In this document: one piece after another, positions 15,063 through 63,895 of the stretch
Numbering within the stretch: position 1 is the first letter of the stretch
How the letters are laid out: each line of letters begins with the position of its first letter
Origin: Apostichopus japonicus
Lineage: Eukaryota; Echinodermata; Holothuroidea; Aspidochirotida; Stichopodidae
Reading direction: 5' to 3'
DNA length: 64,000 nucleotides
NCBI RefSeq assembly: GCF_037975245.1
Contig: NC_092579.1
Span: 13,748,678 to 13,812,677 of the forward strand
Notes under the pieces: generated by a model
Told to the model about the DNA's origin: nothing
Database searches by the model: none
The model's input: the letters and a program-made list of their open reading frames with translations, nothing else
Made by a program: the position numbers and the translations under genes

Positions 15063-15206
15063 TTACATTTCTGCCTCTCCTTCCGGAATTGAGGCTCGTT
15101 CGCCATTATCCGGCTTTTGAGATGAAACAACGCCTCCTCCCATCGGTGTATACAAACTGGATAGTGGTATCTCGTAGAAGCTATTTTCAATTAACGTTTC
15201 GAATAT
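15063..15206 (-). CDS. C-terminal tail exon of the receptor, with YEIP and YTPM
   Basis: 48 codons ending in TAA at 15063-15065. It contains [22 protein letters not shown] fits the YxxM consensus bound by PI3-kinase p85 SH2 domains, and YEIP fits a general SH2 docking pattern. Docking is inferred from motif only. Confidence 0.78.
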   Translation of the reverse strand: MFETLIENSFYEIPLSSLYTPMGGGVVSSQKPDNGERASIPEGEAEM

Positions 15207-18200
15207 CTATATGAATAGAAATGGAAAACAAAACTTATTAATACAAAAAATATCTTAAAGGCGGCAATGGAAAATGCAGAAGATGAGACAAGAAAGATAC
15301 AAAACCACAAATGATTTGCCGAAAAGAATATTTTGTTCTTTATGACATAGCTAAATATTATTAGTCTTCCATTAAAAGAAGAAAACTGTTCTATTTTTCA
15401 ATCATGCATATTTTGTTGTTTATACCATCATTCGATACTTTCAATGTCGCATTTTCATGTTTTACCCTAATTTGCATATATGAATCGCAGCTTACATGTT
15501 TACTTCATTAAATGTTACGGATATCATTTATCATTATGCGTTGGACCTGTTTGTATGGTGACCTTTACTGACATTCATACATATTCATAAGCAAAACATA
15601 TATATATATTGATAGTTCATTGCACAATAGGTTTATGAAAGATACTTAATAGAGCGAAATAGGGTAATATTTTTCCAAAAAAAAATAACATATAACAGTA
15701 TAAATAGACAACAAAATCCTGACAAAGAACAAAAAATTGTCTGTCAGGAACTGGATTCGAACCAGTTTTATCTAAGGAATAAAATTTACATATATGTTAA
15801 TTATTTCTTACCGATTTGAATGAAGCTCTCAGTTGATGAATGGACGGTCGTAAAGAGCAGTTTTGATGCCAGCAGTCAAATAGTGAAAGATTACTGTTGA
15901 ACAAGGCAATGCAAGGAGATTTAACCTGGTTCTTTGATTTATTTCATATTTCAATCGAAGCTGGTGCCAATTATCTTTTTAACAACAAATTATGAACAAA
16001 GCAACACAATATATCATGCAGAGTAAAGACGTGATGTGTTATGTCGTTATCGGAGAAGTCAACCTATATATGTTACTTAAAAAAAATAAAACCCGTCAAA
16101 GTTAGCAAATTAGACATAACGTACCCTCAACACCTCTCCCCTCACGATCTTCCCATATTCACACGCACTTCCTTTCCTCCCCCTCCCCTTCCACCTCATA
16201 CCTTTTTACCTTGTTTTCGTACATAATTCAGTATTCCAATTGCATTATGAGAAATTGCCAAGAAGTTATCTTTGCCTGTGTGAGTAAACGTAAACACATT
16301 TTCAAAACGATTATTTTTGTTTATAAATATACATATATATATACCTTAGTTGTAGGTATCTAGGAGGCCAAATTAATTTGGGTGTTTCGACATCTTGACC
16401 AGGTGTAAGTTCCTCGTCAACTGGGAACGGAGAGGTTCCTTAATATCATATAAAAAATGAAGGGAAAAAATAGTCAATGTCTTTCTTCTTTCATCATTAT
16501 CGTCAATATGTATTCGTATATATTCAGTAAATTTATGATTCGCTTTAATATTAATGGATTGACAAATAAGTAACTTCTTTTAATAAAAGAGTATACCCCT
16601 TTCCTCCGTATGGGCACTGCGTCCCCTCGAGGCCCCCTAACAATTTTTTGCTCCCCTCCCTCCTCCCCCACTCCCCTCCCCTCCCCCTCCCCGTCTCTCC
16701 CCGTCGCTGAGGCTGTGGCTATAACCACAGACAGACTATCCGTGACCTGGTTCGATACGTATTTGCCTTTCAAACTTATTCACAATGTTCCCTTTTTTAT
16801 CTTATTACCATAGAGTAGAATAAAATGTAAAAAGACAGGGCTGAATTTATGGGCTGAGCCTGGGGGTGGATAGGGGGGGTGACCGGGAGATGGGGTAATG
16901 TTGCATCCACCCTTGCATTAAGGGACCCTGTGACAAAACAACTTCATCAACACAACACGCTCGTTATGTCGCAGTCCAGTAACCTATGTACAAACGACGC
17001 TAAAACATTACGAACTCATATTTACCCCATCAGTTAAAAAATAGGTTATTTGTGTGAAGATGAAAGGTAATTGTACATGTACAAAAGTAATTTTATTAGT
17101 GTATAATCACCATCTGATAAGAGCTCCCATATAACTACAGCCGTAGACCATACGTCACTTTCATGTGAGTATTCATTTCGGAAGACAGATTCTGGAGGAA
17201 ACTGGTTTAAAGTGAATGAAACCATCTGTCAAATAAAAGGAAATAATGGAGGTTAAGGTATACCTCTCTGTTAATCATTTGTCGACAAATATGCAGTTTC
17301 ATTTTCAGTTTGTTCTCCATAACTCCCCATATGAGGTATTCCAAGAGAGTTTAAAGATATCAAATACAACGTACAGGAAAAGGTGCACATAGTATCGCAG
17401 ACGATCGCAATGATTGACAAACTATATAAGGTGCGCGGTATACGCCCGAGACTTTAAGTCACGTGCGGTAGAAAGTAACATAACAATTAATATAATTCAT
17501 TAAAGCTTGCATATATAGTCAACTTGAAATGAAATGAAAACAACCCCCTTTTCTGGGGGGGGGGGTTGTATATGTATTTAAGTTTTAAAGATTTCAAATT
17601 TGTACTTCTCATGTGGACAGTCCTACCATGGAACGTACCTGGAGAACATTTCTGTTAGGATTTTCGAGTTATTAACACTTCTCTTATTAAAGTTTATTTG
17701 GTGAGGAAATGAATTTGTGAAGAAAACCCTTCTAAATCCTTTTCAATTTAATACTGAATTTGTGAGAAAAAAATGATTAAGATATGCTGCAACTTTAATT
17801 TTGATTCAAGAAAAGATTTTGGTAGTAAGAATTGAATATGAGCGAACAAACGTCTGAACTGCTAAACTTTGAAAAAAAAATGTAAAAAACATATTTGAGA
17901 CAGTTGTGGTTAGTAACTGAAAATCTTTGCTACGAAAACTCTATATTACGTCATAAAAACAGCGAAGCAGAGAAGTCTCATGGGGGACAGATATGCTCCT
18001 CGAAACTACTCCCCAGCCCCACATTTACACCCCCCACCCTCCCAGCTCAATAAGTGACATTATGTGATAATTGTTAGTTTAGGTCTAAATACGAAGAATT
18101 GATAACAAGTAGAATTAAAGAACTTTAATAAAATATACATAAAAATGGAATATCTACCAGCGACTTCTTTAGAGACACGATCTTTGGTGCGTCTTCAGCC

Positions 18201-21200
18201 AGGCAAAAATCATATAATTTACATATTCCGTCTTTGGTGTATAAAACTTTCTTTGTTGAAAAGCCCGGATGTAAAAACTGTGAGTCATAAGAATAAAAAC
18301 CGGTTCCAAATTTAAAAACGATTACTAACTTCATCTTTTGTTAAATGTCATATATGACTGTGTGAAACAACAACTTGGGAAAAGATTGTGTTTGAAAAAG
18401 TCATATCTATGAAGAATTATTTTAATTTTTTTTTTTATCAAAGTCTAGCAAAGTCATTAACATCCGTTAGTATAGGTATAATATACAAGTATAACGACAG
18501 TCACTTTGTGGGTGAATGGATGACAAACTTCATCTCCCCCGGAAGGGGTAATAGTTGAGGATGGAAGTGGAGGGGTAAGTGATAAGTAGAGAGGATGGGA
18601 TTGGAGGGGAGAGGAGAGGGGAAGGAGGTGAAGGGGAAGGGGAGGGGAAAAATATAAAACTAACCTATTATTATGTACATGACTTACCCCATATGATTTA
18701 ATAAATTCCATTCCTTCTAAAATTCCAGATATATGCTTCATGACATCAGGTACTGTCATTGGACTTTGTGTGCTTTCTGAATCAGGGTCAAAGTTCAGTC
18801 GGCTGTCCAAAGTCTCACAAACAACATGTTCCGTTATGAGGTAAAGCGTACCTGCTATAAAACATAAATTAAATCAATAAAAGAGACTATACACCATCAA
18901 GTGAGTGTTATTAATGGTTCAAGGTTATAACATATATCAGCAGATTCAGCAGTAGCCTATATGGACGATTGGCTATTTAATTACATGACACCGAATTGAC
19001 TTCAACAAGTGCACTCGTCCATGGTTAGGCTAAGGAAGTGCACTAATGAACATTATACAGTCAAATAGTCCAGGGAAAATATATCAATACTTTGTAAAAT
19101 AGTGTTTCATGCTTCGAACTGCACGCACGTGCAAAAAAATCTTATCAAATTAACACGAATCTCTCATATACCGTTAGTTTAACGAGGTTTATATCATAAT
19201 CCGAAATAATAATGGAAGTAAGTCGATCTTAAACAATTTTAAGCCTATACTCGATACCATACGAAGTAAGATATGTGTATAGAGTTTAACGCTTCAACCT
19301 GTACTGGTCACACAAACAAAAACAACAAACATACAAACAAGCAAGCAAACAGAGAAACAGACTATTGGGCAATTGACCCTCTGTTATATTCATCAAGGTA
19401 CACCGATCAGAGAGGTGTAACAACTGACACAGAACGCTATGCGAGGTTCGAATTATGTAACTGTTTTATAGAAAACAAAGCAAACCAAAAAGATGCATGA
19501 TGGATCGTAACGTGTGAAGGTACAGCAAAATCACTGATCTTTTCTCTCCCCCCCTCCACCACCATCACCCTTCACTCTTCCCCCTCCATTGCTTACGGAT
19601 AATATAACACTTAGTTATAGTCCTGTTCTATCACGGTAGTTAGAAAGTTGGAACACGAATTAATTCGTTATCATTTCTTTGATCAATACATCGACAAATA
19701 GTAAATAACTTTCTTTCAATAATATACTTACTTTTATCTACTCCTATTCCTGCAATTTTAGTCAGGTGATTAGTTTTCGGCAGATCAAGTGCTCGCTTAA
19801 CAAATTCATCCCAATGGATAATCTTCTTCTTTATAACTCCATCTGACGTCACGGAAAATAATGAAAGAAATCCCAGGGTACAGTGTTACCTTTTACACAT
19901 TGGCCTAGTATGGGCCTGTGTCATACACATTACAAAAGGAAAACTGTATTGAAAACTTGTCAACACTCCCCTTTCCTCCCCTTAGACTACTATGCCCTCC
20001 GAATTTTACTAGGTATCGAGAAGGGTTCAAGTAGATTTGAATGCCTCGGGAATGTCCCCCCCCCCCTCCCCTCCAACCCCTCTCACACAAGCACTACAAC
20101 TCACCACTATCTACTTCACACAGACTTTCCCCTCTTCACTATTCCCCTCACCCTTTCTCTATTTCCTCCCACCCTCCCCCTCCCCTCCCCTTTCCTTACA
20201 CACATCCTCTTCTCATGAAGATATATATGAAGCAAAACCAACATCACAACAATAATCTACTAAGTATTATCGCCGAATGGTATATACACATCATCCTATG
20301 TTTTGCAAACAACCTCTCACAAAAATACTCTTTAATAAAGTCATAATTTTTGTTTACCTGAAGCAGTCGTTAGAACAGCGCATTTTTTGCCGTGAATTGT
20401 TCCCATCCATCTATTGTATATGGTTCCAATCTTTATACTTAATAAGAGACAGAAATCGTTCTCACTGAAAATTCTGTCCTTTCCAGTACCTTCCTTCGCT
20501 GCAGAGTAATAATCTAAGTATCGGGGAGGGTTGAGGGAGGGGGAGGGGAGGAGGCAGGAAGAGGGAGGGATAGATGAGACGAAAAAAACCATATGGTGAT
20601 GAAGAATTAAAACTTTAAGAGAACATATATTTATAGCGTGCGTGACTTAGAACAGTATACTCATGGATTTTATTATCAGCTTCTAATGACGCAACGGTTT
20701 TTTTTTCTCGACATTATTCAGAGGAGCATCTACAAACCCTGAAGAATTTGATTCAAAGCTTCCAAATCAAAATCCTGTCATCCGGATAAAGACGAACTAT
20801 TATAGATTTATTATGTATAAATCAATTCTCCTCTAATATATTTGTAATTTTCACATATGTGACACTCACCCTGTTAGCAGAGATAAATATTTAAGGGTTT
20901 GAAACCATTTTCAATATAGTTCTACAATTGAAACAGTTATATCAAGAGCAAAAACAAAATAAACGAGCCTATATACATTAAGATTGGTTATCGCAAAATA
21001 GCATAAAATATTATCAACATAACTCACTAGTTTCACTGCTTCCAGTCGAGTTTAAAGAATTACTCTCATCACTCGGGATGCTTGGAAGATCGGATCTAAA
21101 TCGAGAGACAGAGAGAATATTGAAAACGCTTTTAATTTCGTTACAAGTCGATATTTAACAGCTACTATTAAAATATTGTCATATTATATATGCAAAGATT

Positions 21201-21346
21201 AAAGCACCAACTACATTCGTATTTTCTCTGTTTTAATGTCATGATTGGTTGGATACCATCAAAAGTCTTAAATTTGATTTTTCTGATACGATTCCAAGCA
21301 ATTTACAAAAAACATTGAGCTTGTAGCCTTACAACAAAAGTATCAC

Positions 21347-21405
<59 letters not shown>

Positions 21406-24400
21406 CCAGAAAGACATATAACCTTATATGCATATATAACACTCTGAGCGAACCTTGCTATTGTTTGCTAATCATTATGAATAAACTCTTGTTGTATTTA
21501 TACATAATTAACTTTAGGAATGAAATTTTTTAAACTATATCTCGTGATTTGAAATGGTTTAATCACTACAAGTGAGAATTTTTTTCGGATAACGTCATAT
21601 ATACTATATGTTTACAAGAAACTTCACTATATCATTTTACGGAAGAAGGAAAAAAAAACCAGCAGAACAAAACACAACAGAACATAAAATTCTTACTTTG
21701 GTTTTCCTTTAAAACTTCCTTGTAAAGTATTCTGCAGAACTAAGGAAGATAAATGTTATAAATAATATCATTACCATGTAATATTAATGTAATTAATTTC
21801 AAGCCATTTTATAGTGTATGGATGATATGATTGATTAACGTACGTGATTGGTCGGTTGGTGGCAGGCTGTTCAATTGAATCTGAGATGGTGCACGGAGAT
21901 TGGAATCTGTATTCCTAGTCAAAAAAAAAAAAAAAAAAAAAAATCCAATATGCCTTTCAAAGTCGTTTTCTGAACTTGCAGGTTATGCTAACATTGTAAA
22001 TTGCTATATAATCACATAAATGTTAGATTTTTTTCTTGGGGGGGGGGGGGGTAAAATAAACTGTGTAAAATATTATTAAAAATATATAACTTACGTTGAT
22101 AAGTTAGCAGACATCGAAGCTACAAAGGAAATGCAAACAAGTAGAAAATCTATCAACTTAAGTGAAAAGGAGTGTAAGAATTGTTCCATAATTTATTAAA
22201 TACATAATGAATCATGTCGCATGCCATTAAGCTGACCTTGTACACTCTTCTGTCAAATTCCATTATTGATTTTATTTTTATATTTCGTTAACTATACACT
22301 TTCATTTTAACTAACAATTCCAATTGAGTATTGCATAATAATTGTTACGACAAAAACAAATGGTGATGAGTACATGCACTTACATCTGAGTTTGATGATT
22401 ATTTTGTAGCCACAGACAAAGAATGAGAGGATACACAATAAAGCTAAAGTGGAACTCAACCACTGAAGAAGAGAAAAGACCCCTCCTACTAGGAAATGAA
22501 AGATATAAAAAGATATAAATTAATCAAAATAGTAAAGCATGAATGATCAAAACGAAAATATATATTAAGCTATCAAAATGAATAGATCAAATAAATAGAG
22601 TATATATATATATGTCTATATATATGTCTATATATATATGTCTATATATATGTCTATATATATATGTCTATATATATGTCTATATATATGTCTATATATA
22701 TGTCTATATATATATGTCTATATATATGTCTATATATATATGTCTATATATATGTCTATATATATGTCTATATATATGTCTATATATATATGTCTATATA
22801 TATGTGTCTATATATATATATATACTATATATATATATATATATACTATATATATATATATATAAAGTATATTAATCAAGTACAAATTAATTTTTTAGAT
22901 GTTGTTGGTCTATCAGTTCAAGATGTATTTCTATACCACTTATAACAATTTACAATAAACTCAGTGTATCAGTTCGCCATGTTTTACGTTAAAGAAAGCA
23001 GTTGCTCTGAAAATTATATGCTAAGCATGAAAGTCGATTGTGGAATATTTATGATGTGACAATTACATGTACGTGAGCTAATAAATGAAATGGAATAAAG
23101 GAAAGTAGAAATGCTGCTACTTTTGATAATTTTAAAATAGTTTCCCGTTTCTTTTCTGTATGTTACATCATTCAGCTAACTTAAATAGATATCCGGGGAA
23201 ACTTTATGTTCTAATCGCATCAAAGTAATTTATTAAGTCAGACCTGAAGATGAAGAAGGCACTAAAATTGTAGGTGTTGTTGTCCTTGTTGACTCTTCTG
23301 AAAGATAAACAAAGTAACAGAAGACATACAAAATAAATAGATACGTCCTGTATAGTCATTTTTGTTTTGTAAATAAAACAAATCAGCCGATACCATGTTG
23401 ATGTTTTGAAGCTATTTCAGTTTGGTTTTAGTCAATTTTTCAATTGCATTCAACCCCCAAATTGCCGTAACGATGAAATGCATGTAGTTTTACCAGGACA
23501 GTTTGCATATAGTGAACTCAAAGTCCCAAAGTTTTTATATTTTCCAACTGGGATTAATATTAATACAAAGAATGTCTCGACGACGGAATGTATGTTTGTT
23601 TAGACACCTGTTACGATTGCATCCTTAAGTATATACTTAAATCCTTCGACGGTTATAACACGATCGTTACATACGTCTATGGATGTTTTAACAGTTATAT
23701 CGTCGATAACATAAGCTTAGATAAACTCAACGATTATATTCTCCTCTACATAAACCGGTGCACGGACGGTAATATATACTAACGATGTTATATCTCTTTT
23801 AATAAAGCTTGGAGCTCATTGTTTGATGTTTCTTACCAGATAATTCCAATATTATCGTTACGCTGTTTTCGGGATTAGTGACATTTGGGATGTGTTGTAT
23901 GCTTTCGCAGGTGATAGTCTCGGGTTCCAGCCGTTTTACCAGAGGATACGTAATTATTGTGGAATGTTCATTGAACGTCGAATCTCTCATAGCTGCAAGT
24001 TTCTTGTTAAAGAGGTAAAGCGATAGCTCCGCCTCGGGTTTTGCTCCTTCAGCATGGCATGACACATTTAACATCGTCTCTGCTTTCACAAAATGTTCTT
24101 TCTCGACCCTTTTGCCATTAAAAGTCATATAAAGATCTGGAAAGACTTGACGTTTGAAAGAAAATTTGTGAACAGCCAAGTTTGTTTCTTCTTTTGTGAT
24201 AATTTACCCCCTCCCCCTTCCCTCCCCAATCACCTTACAAGCACAGTGGTGAATTCAGGAGTTCTCTAAGGTGGGGGAGGGGGGGGGTCAGCTCAACGCA
24301 ATAAAAATTCAACGCAAAATTACTATCAAAGCAGCGAAGCAATAAGACATCACCGTGAAGAAGAAGCTGAAATGATTGCGCGCGTCTTGTCACCATCATG

Positions 24401-24934
24401 ACATCACAACTTTCACAGAACATAACTAGATAGCCCCTTGAACACGAAACCCAATATTTATGTTACGTTATTATTCAAACTTATATAGGCCTATATATAT
24501 ATATTCTCGATATTAATGGACATGCCATTAAAACGAACTTTTTAAGTGTAAGTTAATGAAATATATGGTTTGAAACTGAAACCGTGAATAGATATTAAGT
24601 TGATCCTTACCATAGGTATAGAGTGAAACATTAAAATGATAAACTTTCGAGGAGACGCCATAAGCATTGCAGGATATCGTAACCACGTCTTTATCCGGTC
24701 GATAACTCGAGAACACAGATGTTGAAATCGTTGGAACGTTTTCAGTTACATGTTCTACATATGTTAGTGGAAGCCCATAGATCTCTTCACTGTTATTAAT
24801 AACCACAGTAACGTTTACTGCTGGTCTGGATTCCGAGGCAAGACAAGTTATATTTAATGACACATCTTTAGGAACCCAAAGATATGCTTGATCAAGTTCA
24901 TTTCCATTGATACGTATAGACATCTTTGGAGGTA
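15063..24934 (-). CDS. Ig-domain receptor tyrosine-kinase-like pseudokinase (5' end not found)
   Basis: Minus-strand exons: 24611-24934 and 23837-24136 (one Ig-like domain each, cysteines in LNITC/TISC and LNVSC/TITC), 23244-23297 (Ser/Thr stalk), 22384-22488 (transmembrane), 22095-22119, 21844-21914, 21697-21739, 21028-21095 (juxtamembrane), 20358-20498 (P-loop region), 19732-19842 (helix C), 18688-18851 (hinge, insert, helix E), 18158-18277 (catalytic and DFG region), 17111-17225 (PPE and SDVW), 16345-16420 or -16438, 15812-15925 and 15063-15206 (tail, TAA stop). Junction phases agree throughout except between the 16345 and 15812 exons. Catalytic residues are replaced: the VAVK lysine position reads CAVLT, HRD reads HPG, DFG reads DFC and the glycine loop is lost. 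Structural residues PPE, SDVW and CW-RP remain. About 660 residues are visible; signal peptide and first exons were not found. Predicted single-pass plasma-membrane receptor that binds ligand or partner without phosphotransfer. The exact RTK subfamily could not be assigned. Confidence 0.8.
16345..16438 (-). CDS. Small kinase C-lobe exon of the receptor (acceptor and joining uncertain)
   Basis: Reads [14 protein letters not shown] then [12 protein letters not shown], matching the segment after the WE-L-G motif in tyrosine kinases. Two in-frame acceptors are possible: TTCCCAG (exon from 16420) or TTAAG (exon from 16438). The donor is AAG|GTATAT in phase 2, but the next recognised exon (15812-15925) begins in phase 0. 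Either a microexon lies between them or the frame is broken here. Confidence 0.62.
18158..18277 (-). CDS. Catalytic-loop exon of the pseudokinase
   Basis: 40-codon, phase 0-0 exon. The catalytic loop reads [12 protein letters not shown] where active kinases have HRD plus AARNVL: the catalytic aspartate is glycine and the metal-binding asparagine is lysine. The next motif is [10 protein letters not shown], so DFG is DFC. The activation segment ([11 protein letters not shown]) has no tyrosine. All of this is read directly from one uninterrupted exon. Confidence 0.87.
20358..20498 (-). CDS. N-lobe (degenerate P-loop and beta-3) exon of the pseudokinase
   Basis: Encodes a start of lobe [16 protein letters not shown] and beta-3 [11 protein letters not shown]. 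The GxGxxG loop is not kept, and the invariant beta-3 lysine is replaced by leucine in CAVLT. The next exon (19732-19842) supplies helix C and the sequence [10 protein letters not shown], which aligns with the usual IVKLLGVC beta-4 region. Confidence 0.82.
21345..21402. repeat. TA microsatellite in a receptor intron
   Basis: Two TA tracts separated by CATATACA lie in the intron between the juxtamembrane exons 21028-21095 and 21697-21739. Confidence 0.9.
22384..22488 (-). CDS. Transmembrane exon of the receptor
   Basis: Encodes [20 protein letters not shown] then [14 protein letters not shown]: a hydrophobic span of about 23 residues followed by lysine/arginine, giving an outside-in single-pass orientation. 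The acceptor is TTTCCTAG; using the nearer TTCTTCAG would break the phase with the stalk exon. Confidence 0.83.
22602..22865. repeat. TATATATGTC minisatellite (10-12 bp unit)
   Basis: Alternating TATATATGTC and TATATATATGTC units, ending in TA tracts with ACTATA breaks (from about 22815). It lies in the intron between the stalk and transmembrane exons. Three overlapping open frames (repeated MSIY/ICLY) are repeat artefacts. Confidence 0.95.
23837..24136 (-). CDS. Ig-like domain exon 2 of the receptor
   Basis: 300-nt, phase 1-1 exon encoding a second Ig-like domain from DLYMTFNGK to TIILELS, with cysteines in LNVSC and ETITC. It is followed by a 17-residue threonine/serine-rich stalk exon at 23244-23297 ([15 protein letters not shown]). 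Confidence 0.85.
24611..24934 (-). CDS. Ig-like domain exon 1 of the receptor
   Basis: Phase 1 to phase 1 exon, 324 nt, starting after TCTACAG and ending before GTAAGG. It encodes one Ig-like domain with a cysteine pair (SLNITC and VVTISC) and several N-glycosylation sequons (NIT, NVT, NNS, NVS). The symmetric 1-1 phase lets such exons duplicate without breaking the frame, consistent with the decayed copy upstream. Confidence 0.85.
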
Positions 24935-31900: not shown

Positions 31901-33833
31901 TATATGATTTTTGGTTGGCACATCTCTATTACCTGTTATATTTATTTTTTAGGTAACTGTCCTTGAAGGTGTAAAACTATCTTTGTGAGGGTATATTTCT
32001 ACTGGGTATCTGGATGGTGAGTCATGGTGTTTGGTAGTGATGATTATCTTATTTTTCAGCACAGTTCTGCTAAATTACTGCAAGGATATGTATTGGTATC
32101 ATCTGAACACAAATTCATTGTTTTTTTTTCTGGAAACTTAATATTTGAGTAACAGTTTTGTTTACAACTTTATATTTGGACAATACCCTCTACAGAATTT
32201 ATGCTTCATATTTTATGGCGTGCACTTACAGAGAGAATTTAGTAAGCAATTTCAGTAGAAGAGGTGACTATGGTAAAGATGATCAAGTACCTAAAACTGG
32301 CAACATGGGCTGTGACTTGCTTTAAGTTAAGTTTTCTCTAATCAACTATCTCGATTATTAAAGTGATGTTCCAGGTTGGAGATTTTCTTGCTTGATAACA
32401 TTTGTTTAACTTGCATAAGTTTTATACAGAAATCCAATGTTGATTGTTTACGATGAAGCATGGAGCATAATTACATTTTTATCCTTTATTTATCCAAGTC
32501 ATTTGAAACATGCTGTTGTGTGAATGCAAACTTTATTTTATCGTTTATTTACTTTGGTTTGTAACTTGTGAATTCCATGTTTCAGGAGCTGTTTATCCAG
32601 TATTGACAATATAGACCGTCAGACCGTATACTTCCTGGTTGTGTGATTCTTTCCCGAGGCTTACTACCTCAAATTTGCGTTTTTCTTCAATAATGGTACT
32701 TAATGACCTTGATGAATATTGATTTCCAATCAGAAGTGAATCTGATCACGGTAAGGTTATAACAAAATAGAGCAGGCAGGGACAGAGTGATGGTGAGGGC
32801 GTGCTGCACAATGATGGAAAAGAGAAAGTTGAAGTGACCTGGTGTATAAAGAGTTCGTGGAATAAATACAGATTCTACCTTGTCATAATGACCAAGGTCA
32901 GAAATACTTGTCAATTATCATCTTTTTCAACTGGACTATTAACCAAAAACCCACTATACAAATCGTGTCCAGTTATTGGGACTGTGGGCGTTCTTATATA
33001 TCACCGATTTCAAATAAATTGTTTGTTTGACTTGTTTGTCATATGACGTTTAATTAATTGCTTAGTGATTTTTGTTTTTTACTTCCCATCTTCTTAGAAT
33101 AACTTGAATCAAGCTCTATTGGTGGTCATTTGAAAATGCTTTCTTTTGAGATGCGGCGCATGATAATTTCCACTTAGTAGTGTGAATAGTTCAGAAGGCA
33201 TGCAGCGGTAAACAATGAAAATCTTCCCATCTAGCCTTTTCTTTCAAGCTCTGTGGTTGCTATGGAATTGATCTTTTTATTAAAAAGATTGATCCTTTAT
33301 TGTAAATACACAAACAAGCAGCCAGGGCCCAATTGGTACCTATTACAAGTGGTTTCATTTCATGGATGGACGATTCCATTGACTGTATAGGGATGGTATG
33401 ACATGCATAACGTCCTTCTCTCTCTCTTTGCATGAATAATTATTATACAAATAATCCACAATTCTCTGAATTTGTTTACTCTGACGTCTTGTTTGGCAAG
33501 GTAGCGAATTTGTTAGGTCAATTATGAAAAGAGAAAAAAAAAAAGAGATTTTTTTTTTACGTTTACAATATTTGTGTCCCCTATACACAAAGTGAACTGT
33601 CCCATGGTGAATTTTGTCCCAACACGAAATGTATGCGGTGTATGTTTGTACATTGGTTAATTTATTACGACTGTAGTAGGAAGGGTAAGTACATTCATAC
33701 GTGTGCATGTATGACAGAAAAAGTTATCAGCTAAAGAGATTAACACCTTTGTTTTCTCATTTAGTCGATAATAGGAATAAAAACAATCAATCAATACAAA
33801 AATATAAAAAAAATTGTAAACAATAATTTAGAA

Positions 33834-43898
<10,065 letters not shown>

Positions 43899-52199: not shown

Positions 52200-54300
52200 C
52201 AAGCTTTTGGTGGTTGTCTCTCACAGGAATGGGCTGCTATCTTCAACTTCTCTGGTAGTCATCATTCCAGCTTTGGTGGTTGTCTCTCTAACAGGAATGG
52301 GCTGCTATCTTCAACATCTCCGGTAGTATTTTGATTGTCGTACTTCCATTGGGGATGGTGTAACCTCAGTTGTAGAAATTAAAGCATATATCAGATTGTG
52401 ATTATTGTAACCTCCAAATTCATGGCGGTGTACCTCAATTTGAAAAGCTAGTGGACATCAGTCGAAAGCTGAACCTCCATTGGCGATGGTGATGTACATC
52501 AATTGGAATGGCAAACATCAGTGATTGATTGTACTTCACTTGGGATGGATGGAACTACCCAAGATGGCAATGTTGACTATGACATCAACCAGCAAACTTG
52601 TAAAGATTTTCCGAATTGGGGCTTTGAACAACTGTAAAGGTCTGCACCATTGACATAGTAGACTTCATCCCTTGGTTCCTTCTCTAGCAGTGCTGGATCT
52701 TTGATGACATCAAATAGCTGTACACTGGGTCAGCAGAACATTAACCTGGATTAAGCAGCACTCTCATCACACTGAATTGAGTAGAAAGGAAAAGTTGGAA
52801 CTTGACAGAACCAACCGCCAATATCTGCATACTCACTGTGACACATCAAACTTGCAGCTACAGATCTGTGGGAGGGCCCACTGTCGCCTGATATTAACTT
52901 ACTGGCATCAGCAATCGAGACGGCACCAACGGACGTCTCAATAATTACCATGGTTGTAGCATCTTTGAAGCGAAGTGAGGTTTACACACAACTGCTTATC
53001 AAAGACTGGTAGTTGACTTCTAAGGATTGGTAGTTGACACCTGCGTACTTGACACTGCCAATTGAGTACTGGAATGTGAAGACTTGTGGTTGACATCAGA
53101 GGACTGGTCGTTTACATCTGAGGACTGAGAGCTGGCTGGCATCCGAGGACTGGTGGTTGACATCCGAGGACTGGTGGTTGACATATCGAGGACTGGTGGT
53201 TGACATCCGAGGACTGGTGGTTGACATCCGAGGACTGGTGGTTGACATCCGAGGACTTGGTGTTGACATATCGAGGACTTGGCGTTGACATATGGAGGAC
53301 TGGGAGCTGACATCTGAGGACTGGTGGTTGACATATCGAGGACTTGGCGTTGACATATGGAGGACTGGGAGCTGGCATCTGAGGACTGGTGGTTGACATC
53401 CAAGGGCTGTTTGCTGACATCTGAGGACTGGTGGTTGACATATGGAGGACTTGGCGTTGACATATGGAGGACTGGGAGCTGACATCTGAGGACTGGTGGT
53501 TGAGATCCGAGGGCTGTTTGCTGACATCTGAGGACTGGTGGTTGACATCTGCCGATAGTGTAATAGGGGGTAACATCCAAGGATTGCTGCTAACCCTATG
53601 GGTGACAAACTTTTTTGGAACTACTTAGCTGGCATCTGAAAAAATCTGGTCTACAAAGTAGGGCCAAAAGACTGGTACCAACAAGAATAACAAATGACCC
53701 AATTACAATAAACATCTCTTCAAAAGGAATAGGAGACACCTGATTTAAACAGACTAACCACGAACAAAAATCATAAAACAAAACCTCAAAGATATAATAC
53801 TTCTGTTGGCATCTGACTTCTACTAGCACGCAACGGAAGGACATCATAAGGCCCTCTCAGACTCACTCCATTGACCGTAATGAAACTACAGGCAATTTCT
53901 TCATCGCTGTATCACCCAATGATAGTTGGCTCTACTACGATTGCTTATTTGGGTTGATGTGGAACAGTGACAATGGCTACCTATTGTGGCATCTAAGAAT
54001 ACATGGCTTTCATACAATGGCATAAAACTTTTGCAGTTCATGGATTTATTACAGAATTAACTGCGCTGGTAGTAAATGACTTGATTCTGTTTTGATGGCG
54101 TCTCAGGTTGATGATCCGGTGGCACATCTTAGGTGGTCTGACATCTTAGAACAGTCTGCTCTCATACGATGGAAAACATCTGGTGTTTCAACAATGGCAT
54201 CTAATTAATTTCATGATCCCTCATCTTGGTGGGTTGTGGCAGCTTTTATTTGTAATCTTGTGCATTGCACACCTGTTGATTAGGTGGTCTAAACTGGACA
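52200..54300. repeat. Degenerate minisatellite field with 21-bp homogeneous core (53090-53560)
   Basis: The core consists of tandem 21-bp units such as GAGGACTGGTGGTTGACATC, with variants (TTGGCGTTGACATATG, GGGAGCTGACATCTG) arranged in a partly higher-order pattern. Flanks on both sides carry weaker GGTGGTTGTCTCT, TGGCATCTAAG and GACATCTTAG relatives, and a direct repeat of about 50-60 bp (52214-52255 and 52279-52325). On the minus strand all three frames are open through the core because 21 is a multiple of three (heptads MSTTSPR, CQPPVLG, VNHQSSD). No splice or promoter context supports translation. Confidence 0.85.
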
Positions 54301-56172: not shown

Positions 56173-59100
56173 CTACTGTGCTTGTAAGACCCCTTGACTC
56201 TGTGTGCAGTTGACTTTGGTTTTATCTTCAGTTAAGGTCACCCCTAAATCAGTCAGGAATTTAAGACAGTCTTCAGAACTCTGAAAAGCTAGTTCGTTCT
56301 GAATGAAGGCTACAGGCAGGTTGGGTCTGTATCTGAGATGGTAGGAAATAAATAGAGTTAGTCACCAAATACAGCGTAAAAGAAAAAAAAAAAAGATTTT
56401 TTTTCAAAAGGAAATCGACCACAAACTTGCAGGAGTACCTTACCACTATACCTGCAATAAAAGTTACATTAAATATTAGAAGCTCCACCACCAATATCTT
56501 TTACATTAATAAAAGCAAACATCCAACTCGAAACAGCTAAGAGCTGTAATTATCAATGAGAGGCTGGAGTAAGTCAACAAAGAATTAAACAAATATACCC
56601 ACCATCGTCAATCCTTCAAACATGTTCATTTTAATCAACAAACAGGAAATGCACTTGTGTACACATTCTGATTCATAGACTTATTTGTAAGGGATGATTT
56701 CTCAGAAACTTTTACACTACTTACCAGAATTTTAAAATGTTTAAAAATCTCAGTGATTTCAACATGTGCTGACAAAGTTTTACAAAGGTGTATTTTGGAC
56801 AATTGGAAAAAACGAACTCATGTACTAACAAAATGGACAACTTACCTGAGCAACCTCACCTGATGATTTCAACCTTAAGAAGTAATTTTGCAAGTCATAA
56901 CAACAAACTTCTGCAACTGATATACTCTAAATTTTCATCAACACATCACATTTTGTGTGAAAAACTACAAATTTTAAGCAGGATAAGTAGTGGAAAGCTA
57001 CTGTTTTAAAAGTTCTTTTTTCATCGTAGGGCACTTGCACTATAGGATGACTCACCTTACAGTTTTTACCATAGAATAAAACCTTTGGCATTCATATGCC
57101 ACCTTCCCTCACCCCCCCCCCCCCTCCTTACCAGCATATACAAAACTAAAAAGGAAAACAAGGAATATATATACGTACGATTTAACCATTGCTTTGATGG
57201 CATCTTTCCTTTGACGCTCCACAAACATGTCCATTAAATATGGGGACATTTTGGGAGCTGACCTGTATAAAAGAAAAAATTTATGGTAATCTGATAACGC
57301 TACGGCGGTTCGAAGTGCAAGGGCGTGTTGGACCATTGCATTGTTCTTGACAGTCGGAGACAGACTTGTAAGAGCTGTTGTTATATCTGCGAATGAGGAG
57401 AAAGAAAAACAACTTAGAGAACTCTCTAATATGAAGAAACATATTATTAATAACATCATGAAATAACTTTGTAACAATAATTTCTCATGTACGAGTGTAG
57501 AAAAAAGTCAAACACAAAGTGTAAGATTTATTTTACAGATAATTTCAACATGGGGTTTTGCTGTTAGCAGCAGCGCATAATATGGGTCAAACGACATTAT
57601 TTGATAAGAATGATGGATAAATTGTTATCTATTAATTTTTTGGCTTTGTTTATTAATCTGATTCATATGTGTTTAGATTCTGTCTCTCACCTGATGAACT
57701 GTTTGTCAAGATGTAATACAGGATTCGATAGGCTGTGAACTCATTCACGTTTCCTGGAATGTTTTCTGCGTACAAGGACTTGAGCTGTGTTTGACATTGG
57801 TTGAATTCTTCTCTGTCACCCTGTATGATAAATGAAAACACAATGACTGGCATGAACAAGCTCTTTCTAAGTACTCTGAATTCACTAAATAATTCCAGAC
57901 TATGCATCATCAGATCCACTTTTGTCTTTACTCAGTAATTATAAACTGCTATGTTCTGTGCAATGATGGGTTCGCCCTGAATCACATCAGCATTGACCAT
58001 ATCCCAATTGATTTATCAGATTTGCATGAGTACTTTGGTGCTCTTTGGTACAGTCACACCCCTAAAATATACCATTAACAAGTAGTTTTCTGAAGAATAA
58101 GTACATTGGAGTTAAGTTCCCTACAATCATCCCCTAAACCATAAGGCCGTCAACGTTAGTTTGTTACACAACTGACAAAGTCAAAAGATAAAATGACTGG
58201 TAAAATTTTTCAGCTCCTCAAAGATATCAAAAATACACCAAAAGATGATGGCGAAACTTACCTTTTCCAACGCTATCCTTGCGTGGGCTTCGTAGACCTT
58301 TACTGTGAAACCATTCCGTATTCTTTGGACCTGACACAAACAAACAAAGATAATAGATTGGTGAGGACCAGCACAGTCTGTTCCTTGTAAGTAAGATTGT
58401 ATGACCTCTAAGACATTTCACAAACATTGCATTAGGTCAAAGTGAAAATAGGAGGTGAGAATAACATTCAGTATTACAAAAAGTTCACTTATTCTTTTAA
58501 TACAAACAGGATTTAAGAGCACACTTACTGCACTGGACAACAGTATAGCTAAAATAGTCCTAACATGTGAGAGTCATGGAGGTTGGTGGAAGTGATTTTT
58601 ATAAGTCTGGAAGTGTCACTCACTGTAGTAGTGCATGTGAACATTAATTCTTAAATCATTTTGACCTTATATCATGAATATTTCATGACCTAACTTCATG
58701 AAGTGCAGATTATATTGTCATGGAAACTCAAATTTAATTTTGAAAACATAACAATCCAACACATTCCAGGAAAAAGTAATCGGCCATAAAAAAAAAAACT
58801 TTGAAAAAAATTTAATTTAAATTTAAATTAAAAAATTACTTTCTGAGGTTGCACATACTTATACTTAGGGGTGCAGCGCGGGTATGGTGAAATGCAAAGA
58901 AGACACTCACCGTTAAATCTTGGCGAATAGATTTTAATTGGTTGCATATGTAACGATAATCCTTCTTCTCCAGCCACTTTACCTTCACTGCTTCTATTGA
59001 CTTCTTAAGAACCTCTAGTGGACGGACTTCACTTGCATTTGGAGCCTAGAGTACAACAAAGTAACCAAAAGCTAGTATTATTGCTATCTATCATAATTTA

Positions 59101-62100
59101 AATCATTCCTCCCCCCCATCCCCTACTCAATTTAAATATAATATTAGTTCACAATGGGTGGTGACATCTCCTGGCAAAGATAAAGCAACAAGGCTTGTTA
59201 TTATAACAACAGAATAATTCAAGTTGGAGATATAAGTCAAAATTTCATCACTAACCAATTTCATCACTAATCAATTTCATCACTATCGATTTCATCACTA
59301 ATCAATAAATGCATCATCTGGACATTTTGCTTCATTGATGACAAGATACATCCATACCATGTGGTTAGTTTAGTACGTTCAAGAGATTAAAGCTATCCAA
59401 TCGCGTTAACCGTGTCACATGTGAGTTCCTGATCGACGGCAGCTGTACGATACAAGGTGACGTCAATGCATTTCGGCTTGTACATTGTAATGATGTAATC
59501 TCAATTGAATACTTACTGTGGTTAACCTCAGGTACTGCTTAAAAATATCCTGACATGTTCCAGATACTGGTTCCAAAGACCATTCTAGATCTTCTGATGA
59601 ATTGTTCTACAAAGCAAGACACATAACATAGAGGTGTAAAATATGAACAATTTTCCTCCACTTAAAAACAATTCATAAAGTGATGAGACTTGGGATTTGC
59701 AACACAATCCCATAGCATACAACATTCACAGGCAGTTAGTTATAAAGATGCTTTCTGTAGGCCGATTCATGGTTAATAACCTTTTAATTAGTTCCCAAAT
59801 AGTAATAACCACACAGATATATATATACTATATAGGATGAGGTGAGGTGACCAGACGTGCCCAATTTCTCCGGACAGTCCCAAGATTTTATGAATTGTCT
59901 CTAAATTTCGTGAACTATCGCATCATTACAAGTTTACCCGACTATTCCCGAATTTGTTAATACGCCCTGAAGTAATGTTAATTTGACAAACACATAAAAT
60001 GCTTGTGTCTAGAGAGGATGTATATATATATTACAGAAACTTGGGCATATGAACATCGTGATGAAGACATAGCACCGCCATACATTAGCTAACATAAAAA
60101 CGCCCTGATGTCAATAGGAGGGGTTTTACATCAACATCACTTCCCCAGACTTCTTGAAATTAATAAGGTCACAGTAGATTAAGGGGTAACTCCACCCTTC
60201 CCTTCAAACGTAGGCTACAGTGTGAGACATTCACCCTCCGGTGTTTCCCATATGTAAACATTGCATTCCTTTGTTCAAAATGTTACAATGTTGCCACTCC
60301 AACGTAAATGAGAATTATACGTTATTTGATCCAATTATCTCTACTCACTGTACTATTAATCTGGATGGAGAGATTTCCCTTGGTTGCTACTCCATGTAAA
60401 ATAGAGGTATATATACGTTATTTGAATCTATCATCTCTACTCACCGTACTATTAATCAGCATGGAGAGCTTTCCCATGTTAAATAGAGGTTATACGTTAT
60501 TTGAATCTATCATCTCTACTCACCGTACTATTAATCTGGATGGAGAGCTTTCCTTTACGCTGTTTCTTAGTTGGAGCTTCCTCCTTCAGCATGTCCTGGA
60601 AGCGGGCTGCTCTCTTCTGCATCTTGGCGGACACTAAAGGATCATCAATCTCACCAACCACACCAGCCTTGCCCCTGAAAAGATCAGTGCAAAAAAATAT
60701 GAACCACTAACAGGTAGAAAAATAATGATGGTTTTACTCGTAAAATCTGTATTTACAGAGACATTTCCATAAGTGGTTCCTAATAAGTCCTTCCATTATT
60801 AAACAATTGCCTTACATCTAATGACATTAACATTATAAAGTTAAAAAGAGTTATCAATGAAGACAAGGACTTTTCAACTCAAAAAACAAACTTGTAAGTA
60901 ATAATAAGTAGTAATTTACAAGTTTACGGATCAATTTTCCATATCTTCAACATGCAAGGACAATATGTTGAGTGTGTCTTGCAACAAAATGGGGTTAAGG
61001 GAGGAAGGATTATTGTGTGTAGTCTTTTCATCTGATATTTTCCTATTTTGTTCAATACAACATTTAAGTGCCATATTCTGACAACCTTATTTCTCACCTT
61101 CCCTTTCCTCTTTTCCCTTTCTTGCCCCTTTGATTATAAGTAGTGTCTTGTTCCTCATTTCCTGCATCTCGTCCTCTACCCCTGCCTCTTCCTCGTCCCC
61201 TGCCTCTGTCTTTTCCTCTCCCCCTGCCTCCCTTACCCCGCGTCTTCTCGCGGGGGCTGGAGAGGGATATGTAATCCGATGATGACTGGGATGGACTTCT
61301 GCTTCCTCCCCGGCCACGACTTCTGCTGCGGCTCCTGCTGCGGCTTCTGGAGCTACGACTGAGTTAAAAACATTGGATTATGGGTAATGCATATTGACAC
61401 GACGAAATGCTCAGTCGCTCAAATTCAAGAGAAAATGTCATCCCAAGAAGGTACAACACTTAGCCTGGTGGCATTCCATTTATGATGATAAAAAAAAAAT
61501 AACGATAAAATCATTGTCACATTGGCAGAACATGTGAACGAAAATGTTAATACTGACGAGTGAACTAATCTTTAATCCATTTCTTGTCATGTGATTCTCA
61601 AGTAAGATTTCAAGGTTTTTTTGTCAATAAAATGGTAGTAATGTGGTGATGTAACAAGTCTCATTTTTCAGACAATAACAGAATAAACTATTAGTTTTTT
61701 TTTTATCTCTTGCCGGTCCTACTTCAGCTTGCAACAGACCAAAACTGTTGTCACATTTCACGTCACGTTTGCCTTGTCTCATGGAAAATGCATTAAAATA
61801 CTATCGTAATAGACCACAACCAAAATGTCAATGTTGAGTCTAAATGCCTTTTGATATGACTAATAAATCTAAATAAATCTAATAAAATTCTGCATACTAC
61901 TGCTGCTATCCTTTCCATCTTTGATTTTACCTTCTAGACTTTCTTCTCCTGTTGGTCTTCCTGTAATACGGAGATCTTGAAGGACTTCTAGACCTGCTCC
62001 TGGAGCGGCTTCTGGACCTGCTCCGGGACCTGCCCAGGGCTTCCTCCTCACTGCTATCGTAGTCATACTTCCCGTATCTCATGGACCTTGGTTGTCTGTC

Positions 62101-63895
62101 TCTGTTGTTTGGGAACCGCTGGTTGTTGTTGCCGATACGGCCGTACTGTGGTTGTTGTGGAGGTCTACTGTTCTGCATACCCGATTCCCATCTGGATGCT
62201 TTCAGCTGTTCCGCGTGCTGCTTATTCACGGGAGGGGGTGCCGCCACAGTCGTCGGCATGTTTTCTTTCTTTTCCCTACAAGAAAGGAAAGAAAGTCGAT
62301 TGACATCTGCGAGACAAATTCTGAAGTTATCAAAATGCTACAAAAGCTTGAAGAAACTCCTTAACTATTTTAAACCTAATTCAGGAGATACTTTAATTGT
62401 ACCCAGTATCCCATCGAGAAACAAATTTGTCTACATGGTTAACTATGAATACATAACTGTGAGGACATAACCTCGATGACATTTATTGTTCTAATTAGGG
62501 AAACAGAAAACAATGAGTAATGTGAAGAGATGTGTTGAGATAGACCTTCCAGCCTTTAAGGAATATTCCAGTAGCCAAAGTTGAAATTGTCTAATAAAAA
62601 AGTTTGAAAATTTTCTGCATCTTAAGATCGAAACCATATCCTCATTGCATCTTGTAAGGCAAAGATATGAATTATTCATCTTGGTGTTAATTTTGTGGAT
62701 GCTTTTGGCAACAGCAAGAGTAAATGTCGTCATGGTAATTCAGCTGAGAATGTTTATGTTTTGGGTTTTTTTCTTTTATAACATTGATCTCACTTATTAA
62801 CAGATTAAAATGTCGCTTTGACAACAAAATATTTGCATTTTGGAATTCCAAAATACAGAAAACCTTAGTAAACATTCAAACCATATCAGATTTAGAGGAT
62901 AAAATCAACAAATAAGATTTATGAAAAGCAGAGGTTTTGAAGAACAACTGCCATCAGTTATGACTTCACAGATCACCTACTGTTATCCCCACTTTAGGGA
63001 GGAAGAACTGAGGGTTTAGCAAGTCAAAGAAGATTACATTCAAGCAAGATGGGGGGGGGGGTTCAAAAATCATTTTGGAATACGCTTTTCTTTCTCACGT
63101 AAGTGTCACGTTGTCCGCCAACTGAATATCTCTTTGACGAACAAATCCCCCAAAGAGGTAAACCTTGTGTATCTATTCTTTTCTTTAACCAGTATGTAAT
63201 AAAGAACACAATACTTACAAAGGCAGTGGTGTATTTGCCCAGTCTCTGTCAAGAAGTGATCCATCTCCCGAGACACTTGTCAATAACTTTTGTAAGAAAT
63301 CTTCAACTGAGTCTTTCTCCGCCTCCGTCTTGCAATGAGCAAACGCTTGCTGCACGTAATCCCTGGAAGAATAAAAATAGACAGTTCGCCCTACAATTAT
63401 CCATCCCCGAGACAACTGATACGATCAAGACGGCATCCCTCGTTCATTTGCCACGTCAAATACTTTAGAGGGTTCATACAATTCATACAACCTCTTACTC
63501 ATTGCTAAGATATTTCTATGCATTGTACTTTAAAGTAAATATAATGAAGCAAAACAGGCTGCTGCTGTTCAAACATATCAGATCACAAATCAATACCAAG
63601 TTGGAATAACCAGGGCTGTCAGTACTATACCAATCTGGTTTGAATACTGTTGAGCAATGACATCCAGCTAGGAGAAAATACTGTCAACTAATCTGATACA
63701 CAAAAATTCATTTTTCCCGCCAATAACCATTTCATCTGGTAGAAACTTTGCTGAATAACTGTCTTTATTTTTCGACCAATGTACAAACCGAAAACCAAAT
63801 CACCAATATCTGAATTGGAAACACTAAAACAATCTTTTTAATAACAAACAATAGAAGGTGCCACTTACTTTAGATCATTTGGCCAGTCCCCAGGC
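56173..63895 (-). CDS. LENG8: LENG8 homologue, SAC3/GANP family (3' part of gene, continues past right edge)
   Basis: Minus-strand exons: 63869-63895, 63219-63362, 61931-62275, 61098-61358, 60524-60674, 59517-59606, 58911-59045, 58262-58330, 57691-57820, 57179-57386 and 56173-56332 (TAG stop). All phases agree; 572 residues are visible. The order is PGDWPNDLK plus [10 protein letters not shown], an RS-rich region ([16 protein letters not shown]), a Gly-Arg-rich region ([17 protein letters not shown]), [12 protein letters not shown], then the SAC3/PCI domain: [79 protein letters not shown]. This matches vertebrate LENG8 closely. The family (yeast Thp3 is a relative) acts in nuclear mRNA processing and retention. 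The RS and RGG-type stretches fit RNA binding. The first exons lie beyond the window. Confidence 0.93.
59240..59304. repeat. 16-bp tandem repeat AATTTCATCACTAATC
   Basis: Four near-identical units in a LENG8 intron (59046-59516). Confidence 0.88.
60317..60553. repeat. Triplicated splice-donor segment of a LENG8 exon
   Basis: Three tandem copies (about 60317-60379, 60413-60474, 60491-60553) each contain intron sequence, a donor (GTGAGT on the minus strand) and about 28-30 bp of coding sequence ending in AATAGTACG or AATAGTACA. The rightmost copy is continuous with the exon 60524-60674. The other two lie downstream in the intron as decoys. Spacing is about 96 and 78 bp. Confidence 0.88.
61098..62275 (-). 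CDS. LENG8: RS and Gly-Arg-rich exons of LENG8
   Basis: Two exons (61931-62275 and 61098-61358) encode the low-complexity region. The first goes from [18 protein letters not shown] to a run of SR dipeptides ([14 protein letters not shown]). The second continues SRS dipeptides, then [15 protein letters not shown] and alternating GRGRGR. The SR tract is thus split by an intron. SR repeats are typical phosphorylation targets of SRPK/CLK kinases; that use here is inferred. Confidence 0.88.

Follow-up and report, generated by a model that had tools for sequence, protein, structure and literature searches.

Can a receptor tyrosine kinase have every catalytic motif altered and still be kept as a working receptor? 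The question is raised by a gene on the minus strand (24934..15063) of a window of 64,000 nucleotides from the sea cucumber Apostichopus japonicus (NC_092579.1, positions 13,748,678 to 13,812,677; the window is the whole stretch analysed), which a first-pass annotation had read from the letters as an immunoglobulin (Ig)-domain receptor pseudokinase with a PI3K-type docking tail. Judged by sequence comparison, the gene is one member of a large holothurian-expanded family. We hold with moderate confidence that this family of Ig-receptor pseudokinases is anciently dead and, once phosphorylated by a different kinase, serves to dock PI3K.

The product of the 16-exon model is identical, letter for letter, to the annotated 657-residue protein P0001. 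AG precedes each exon, GT follows the first 15, and a single frame of about 1.96 kb runs to the stop codon without an internal stop or frameshift, as expected from the earlier claim that the frame is kept across about 16 exons. Encoded are two Ig-like domains, a transmembrane helix (residues 230-261, ahead of the kinase fold in an AlphaFold2 (AF2) model) and a tyrosine-kinase-like domain matching Pfam PF07714 at 1e-26, the fold of which is predicted to be intact. With a kinase-like domain behind a transmembrane helix, and lacking the beta-3 Lys, the HRD Asp and an intact DFG, P0001 has the sequence features of a receptor tyrosine pseudokinase. Exon 1, which holds the first Ig domain, opens inside a codon and thus is not the 5' end of the gene; a scan of the upstream region at 24.9-34.5 kb for a signal-peptide exon found nothing, and a loosened scan gave one unconvincing candidate.

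The motif changes are extensive. The glycine loop GxGxxGxV has become KIGTIYNR (a K-x-G-x-I-Y-x-R pattern), the VAIK segment CAVLT, HRDLAARN HPGFSTKK, and DFG DFC. This replaces two of the three glycines of the loop and the Val of beta-2, along with the beta-3 Lys, the HRD Asp and the catalytic Asn, while the structural residues of PPE, SDVW and CW..RP are kept. The activation segment, where the model places a helix (residues 500-513), has no Tyr, one being present in 5 of 30 non-redundant relatives. The degraded glycine loop, the CAVLT, HPG, STKK and DFC changes, the kept PPE, SDVW and CW-RP, the lack of an activation-segment Tyr, and the YEIP and YTPM of the tail had been noted in the first-pass annotation and recur in the model that matches P0001. 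The register was set against four kinases with kept motifs: P0073 (ROR1-like, termed inactive by its source), P0074 (TrkB-like), P0078 (a Daphnia kinase) and P0087 (a Ret-like protein of a sea star). It is ambiguous by one residue at beta-3, where the Lys position is Thr, or Leu if the register is slid by one; none of the 76 family rows has a Lys in these two columns or in the one that follows (two rows are gapped in the first), although an earlier alignment had placed a Lys in the last of the three in P0068, which has an incomplete N-lobe. Around the alpha-C Glu, a further candidate loss, the register is unsure. The idea that the Trp of RWMG plugs the ATP pocket was dropped, as the same column holds Tyr, Phe or Arg in the four outgroup kinases; the neighbouring Val-to-Arg change is more telling.

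The family itself was delimited by searches with the kinase region. These found 78 proteins, of which 72 (P0001-P0072; 61 from A. japonicus, 8 from Holothuria leucospilota and 3 from further contigs) share the RWMG/HPG/DFC signature, as far as they are complete; the window protein carries RWMG, LHPG..KK, DFC and a tail YxxM. After the 72 members the E-value jumps from 4e-38 to 1.5e-12, where other kinases begin. A profile built from 13 diverse members and scored on 7,994 candidates, chosen as those sharing most words and so leaving room for remote echinoderm relatives, added one member, P0079, and a search with P0079 gave three more from H. leucospilota. The total of 76 entries (61 from A. japonicus, 12 from H. 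leucospilota and 3 from further contigs) is not a gene count, because isoforms and different A. japonicus assemblies are mixed among them. The three further contigs span 3.4-4.2 kb each and encode proteins of 592-974 residues, which suggests transcripts, given the short span for genes with many introns. The remaining matches were ordinary kinases (among them ROR1-like and TrkB-like proteins, the Daphnia kinase and the Ret-like protein of a sea star), Ig proteins, and also P0077, an A. japonicus protein on a long branch that has HPG and FC; it is a possible far member and was excluded from the family counts.

Across the 76 entries, wherever there are data, the beta-3 Lys is absent (74/74), the HRD Arg is Pro (70/70) and the DFG Gly is lost (71/71), and in 66 of the 68 entries with data at Lys, Asp, Asn and DFG Gly none of the four canonical residues is left. 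These counts contain some noise from the partial rows P0004, P0068, P0069 and P0086, whose N-lobe or loop is poorly aligned. Relatives with restored K, HRD and DFG would have pointed to a local error in the window; the same changes recur across 76 related entries instead, and so are not local errors. Among 28 members less than 80% identical pairwise (mean identity 44%), the replacing letters are near invariant: Trp in 28, Arg in 27, His in 28, Pro in 28, the Gly of HPG in 26, Lys for Asn in 28 and Cys for the DFG Gly in 26. As the commonest residue averages 58% per column and only 23 of 262 columns reach 95%, the altered letters of RWMG, HPG..KK and DFC rank with the best conserved columns. 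Shared conservation of degenerate letters is not expected of neutral decay and argues for constraint on a non-catalytic domain. The earlier argument against simple decay thus holds for a family that spans two holothurian families, and the domain is almost certainly catalytically dead, as far as motifs can tell.

The tail is conserved as well. For the tail and juxtamembrane counts we used a non-redundant set of 30, consisting of the 28 members and the hand-added P0084 and P0085; P0086 was left out, as were nine of 73 rows (P0027, P0061, P0064 and P0066-P0071) with kinase coverage below 85%. YxxM occurs in 61 of the 66 family tails of at least 20 residues and in 26 of the non-redundant 30; for YxPM the figures are 48 and 20. 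When the 30 tails were shuffled 2,000 times each, YxxM was found in 3.0 on average and in 9 at most, YxPM in 0.23 and 3; the expectation that relatives would share the motif was therefore borne out. The shuffles ignore kinship, so the excess of YxxM means retention and not repeated origin. Distant members without YEIP still carry YVPM, YIPM, YMPM or YEPM or, in the case of three entries from H. leucospilota, YVHM or YVQM. In the juxtamembrane region, LPx[IVL]P is present in 25 and YY in 24 of the 30. The former resembles an SH3-type proline motif.

For a tree, we thinned the family at 88% identity and at least 75% coverage to 26 rows from A. japonicus, 11 from H. leucospilota and 3 others, plus the distant P0077. 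A branch with 100/100 support split the 41 family-side rows from the four outgroup kinases. Within the family the two species, members of Stichopodidae and Holothuriidae, are intermixed (with 5 and 7 changes of species label), which, with the common signature, suggests that the dead state predates the split of Apostichopus and Holothuria.

These observations can be ordered into a mechanism. A tyrosine-kinase receptor would have lost catalysis before the sampled Apostichopus and Holothuria lineages parted, and the dead receptor would then have been duplicated many times, with the kinase domain kept under constraint as a folded platform. Once a ligand had bound, another tyrosine kinase, itself active, would phosphorylate the YY of the juxtamembrane region and the YxPM near the C terminus; the latter, when phosphorylated, would recruit p85 of PI3K through its SH2 domains. 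The p85 SH2 domains prefer sites of the YxPM type, and the same docking logic operates in HER3, IRS-1, CD28 and DAP10. Docking of PI3K by the tail is likely from the motif. Phosphorylation in trans by a partner, given the rest, is the option towards which we lean slightly; the best argument for it is the presence of conserved tyrosines on a kinase expected to be unable to phosphorylate them.

Several points weigh against this reading. Sequence by itself is no proof of catalytic deadness, and the HRD Asp is still there in P0055, as is the Asn in P0059. As a motif YxxM is short, it is lacking in 4 of the 30 non-redundant tails (P0011, P0048, P0049 and P0085; the ends of P0011 and P0049 may be mis-annotated), and the members are related, so the 26 tails with it are not 26 independent events. 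The outgroup of the tree consists of four kinases, none of them an FGFR, and the long branch of P0077 calls for caution at the base. The upstream scans gave no convincing signal peptide for the window gene, which leaves it uncertain whether this member reaches the cell surface.

The alternative that survives best concerns the ectodomain. In 15 of 15 comparable pairs (hand-picked from 17 tried, with local alignments), the ectodomain was less alike than the kinase and tail. The contrast was most extreme in P0030/P0032 (24% versus 91%) and P0020/P0036 (24% versus 83%), pairs which resemble ectodomain exchange or shuffling plus fast change, as far as alignments suggest. Between P0001 and P0002, 48 of the 225 ectodomain positions differ, as against 28 of the 310 in kinase and tail (Fisher's exact test, P value 8e-5). 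The four proteins of the extreme pairs are all listed on one 34.6-Mb contig. Such a pattern would fit immune-type or self-recognition receptors in which rapidly changing Ig ectodomains sit on a conserved module and the dead kinase is a docking or dimerisation unit, and the expanded A. japonicus gene families are, according to Zhang 2017 (PMC5638244), chiefly those of signal recognition and immunity. Ordinary receptors, however, also have ectodomains that outpace their kinase domains, the pair counts compare family members with each other, and the difference can be slight (P0072/P0079, 51% versus 55%). We regard this alternative as doubtful. The same tentative standing applies to a wider version, in which one receptor tyrosine kinase was turned in sea cucumbers into a non-catalytic, multigene recognition repertoire coupled to PI3K, with fast-changing Ig ectodomains, a dead kinase and YxPM. 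If that were true, the "FGFR expansion" credited with gut regeneration would largely be a collection of docking receptors with dead kinases, perhaps akin to those of immunity or self-recognition, that rely on other kinases for their signal.

The dead copies might instead damp signalling as dominant negatives or decoys, either by pairing up with FGFR-like receptors that are active or by holding their ligands. This would agree with the dead kinase and with the FGFRs that make up most of the nearest solved kinase domains, yet a pure decoy needs neither YxxM, YY nor an intact kinase fold, and all are kept; we consider it unlikely. Residual nucleotide binding or weak, non-canonical activity is very unlikely: of the 71 entries with data, 69 retain the Asp of DFG, and the predicted fold is intact, but the beta-3 Lys, HRD Asp, Asn, two loop glycines and beta-2 Val are all replaced together. 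A decaying pseudogene is scarcely credible, as against the missing signal-peptide exon and the possible decayed Ig-exon copy stand the intact frame, for which the 94 differences between P0001 and P0002, if neutral, would predict about 5.7 stops over both lineages (only the window half being informative, since the annotated P0002 cannot show stops), and the motifs conserved across the family.

Table 1. Exons of the pseudokinase gene and other features, in window coordinates
Feature	Position	Strand	Remark
Exon 1: Ig-like domain 1, not gene 5' end	24611..24934	-	AF2 strands
Exon 2: Ig-like domain 2	23837..24145	-	weak C2-set match
Exon 3: Thr/Ser-rich stalk	23244..23297	-	
Exon 4: transmembrane helix	22384..22485	-	
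Exon 5: juxtamembrane	22095..22119	-	25 nt
Exon 6: juxtamembrane	21844..21914	-	
Exon 7: juxtamembrane	21697..21739	-	
Exon 8: juxtamembrane	21028..21095	-	conserved LPx[IVL]P at 21088-21074
Exon 9: YY motif (conserved) and beginning of kinase N-lobe	20358..20513	-	
Exon 9: degenerate glycine loop GTIYNRWMG	20427-20401	-	
Exon 9: CAVLTT replacing VAIK	20382-20365	-	
Exon 10: pseudokinase alpha-C region	19732..19842	-	
Exon 11: pseudokinase hinge and alpha-D/alpha-E region	18688..18854	-	
Exon 12: catalytic-loop remnant HPGFSTKK and DFC	18158..18277	-	HPGFSTKK 18271-18248; DFC 18211-18203 (hand-counted)
Exon 13: activation segment without Tyr	17111..17225	-	PPE 17198-17190; SDVW 17159-17148
Exon 14: pseudokinase C-lobe	16345..16438	-	
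Exon 15	15812..15893	-	ten-residue stretch at 15874-15845
Exon 16: tail and stop	15063..15206	-	YEIP 15176-15165; YTPM 15152-15141
Possible decayed copy of first Ig exon, just upstream of the intact one	25612-25505	-	weak tblastn match, E 0.3-1.9
Long (TATATATGTC)-type simple repeat	22598-22870		intron between exons 3 and 4
OATP (SLCO) transporter gene	33765-43500	+	PF03137 at 2.9e-14 on first reading frame
Kazal-like stretch in OATP (SLCO) gene	near 40.8 kb		judged by eye
Trinucleotide array	~41050-41450		
Fragments like non-LTR (long terminal repeat) reverse transcriptase	34945-35729	-	by eye; one piece, no Pfam match
Tandem coding-like repeat	53020-53620		open in three minus-strand frames
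Frames resembling SAC3/LENG8	57000-63400	-	by eye; one piece tested, no Pfam match

To our knowledge, receptor pseudokinases are usually single conserved genes. Here a large family has apparently grown from a dead receptor kinase, with the dead signature and the PI3K-type motif both fixed. Such a family is a natural setting in which to study how the kinase fold persists as a scaffold once catalysis has gone. A search of open-licence papers by titles and starts of abstracts gave no described holothurian pseudokinase receptor family among the matches listed, and the passages of PMC8662651 consulted make no mention of echinoderm, sea cucumber or Apostichopus. PMC10764150, PMC10874539, PMC12784826 and PMC11925454 contained no decisive evidence. 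Zhang 2017 lists "tyrosine-protein kinase receptor" among the expanded A. japonicus families, and Li 2018 (PMC6018497) reports 38 "Fgfr" genes in A. japonicus, where other echinoderms or chordates have 4-13; most of the 38 form a separate clade, and their expression is reported as mostly activated in intestine regeneration, for which a role via FGF signalling is proposed; PMC13228809 repeats both reports. The word "kinase" does not occur in the main text of Li 2018, and PMC9890533 studies AjFGFR2, which we do not equate with any member of the present family. The Li 2018 set comes from the same species and was published as FGF receptors, and some of our family entries are named FGFR1-like. We are fairly confident that the published expanded sets include the present family. 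If the "Fgfr" expansion does overlap it, the extra FGF signalling capacity proposed for regeneration needs rethinking, and the automatic database names on family entries (FGFR1-like, VEGFR, ephrin receptor, CSK, BTK and Src) mislead: genes named as growth-factor receptor kinases may instead be docking scaffolds.

Among known systems, FGFRs share with P0001 an Ig-like ectodomain, a single transmembrane helix and the tyrosine-kinase fold. The best solved matches of the kinase domain were FGFRs in 60 of 60 (single sequence, best 60 of 1033) and 58 of 60 cases (profile, best 60 of 2504), and structure comparison placed FGFRs among the closest at about 21% identity, with Mer, Kit and others within 1 Z unit. 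The window protein differs from them in having every catalytic motif altered and a C-terminal YxPM. The HER3-like logic of the first-pass annotation would apply to function, not to kinship. HER3 (ErbB3) signals through its YxxM tail after phosphorylation by a partner, and an impaired kinase with a conserved YxxM is common to both. HER3, however, keeps the beta-3 Lys and DFG, has several YxxM and an ectodomain of L domains and furin-like cysteine-rich regions, whereas P0001 has lost both kinase motifs, carries one YxxM and is Ig-like outside: a Pfam scan of P0001 up to E 0.1 gave no L-domain or furin-like cysteine-rich match, and its model shows two beta-sandwich regions with one Ig match, the 5' end of the gene lying beyond the annotated protein. 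An ErbB3 relative is ruled out by this ectodomain and the mostly FGFR nearest solved kinases. PTK7/CCK4 and other Ig-type receptor pseudokinases also combine Ig domains, a transmembrane helix and a dead tyrosine-kinase-like domain, but with other motif replacements; PTK7/CCK4 has seven Ig domains against the two of annotated P0001, which lacks the 5' end of the gene, and the YxPM tail and the large lineage expansion set the window family apart. CD28, ICOS, DAP10 and CD19 are likewise non-catalytic Ig-type receptors or adaptors that use YxxM for PI3K, but they do so without a kinase-like domain.

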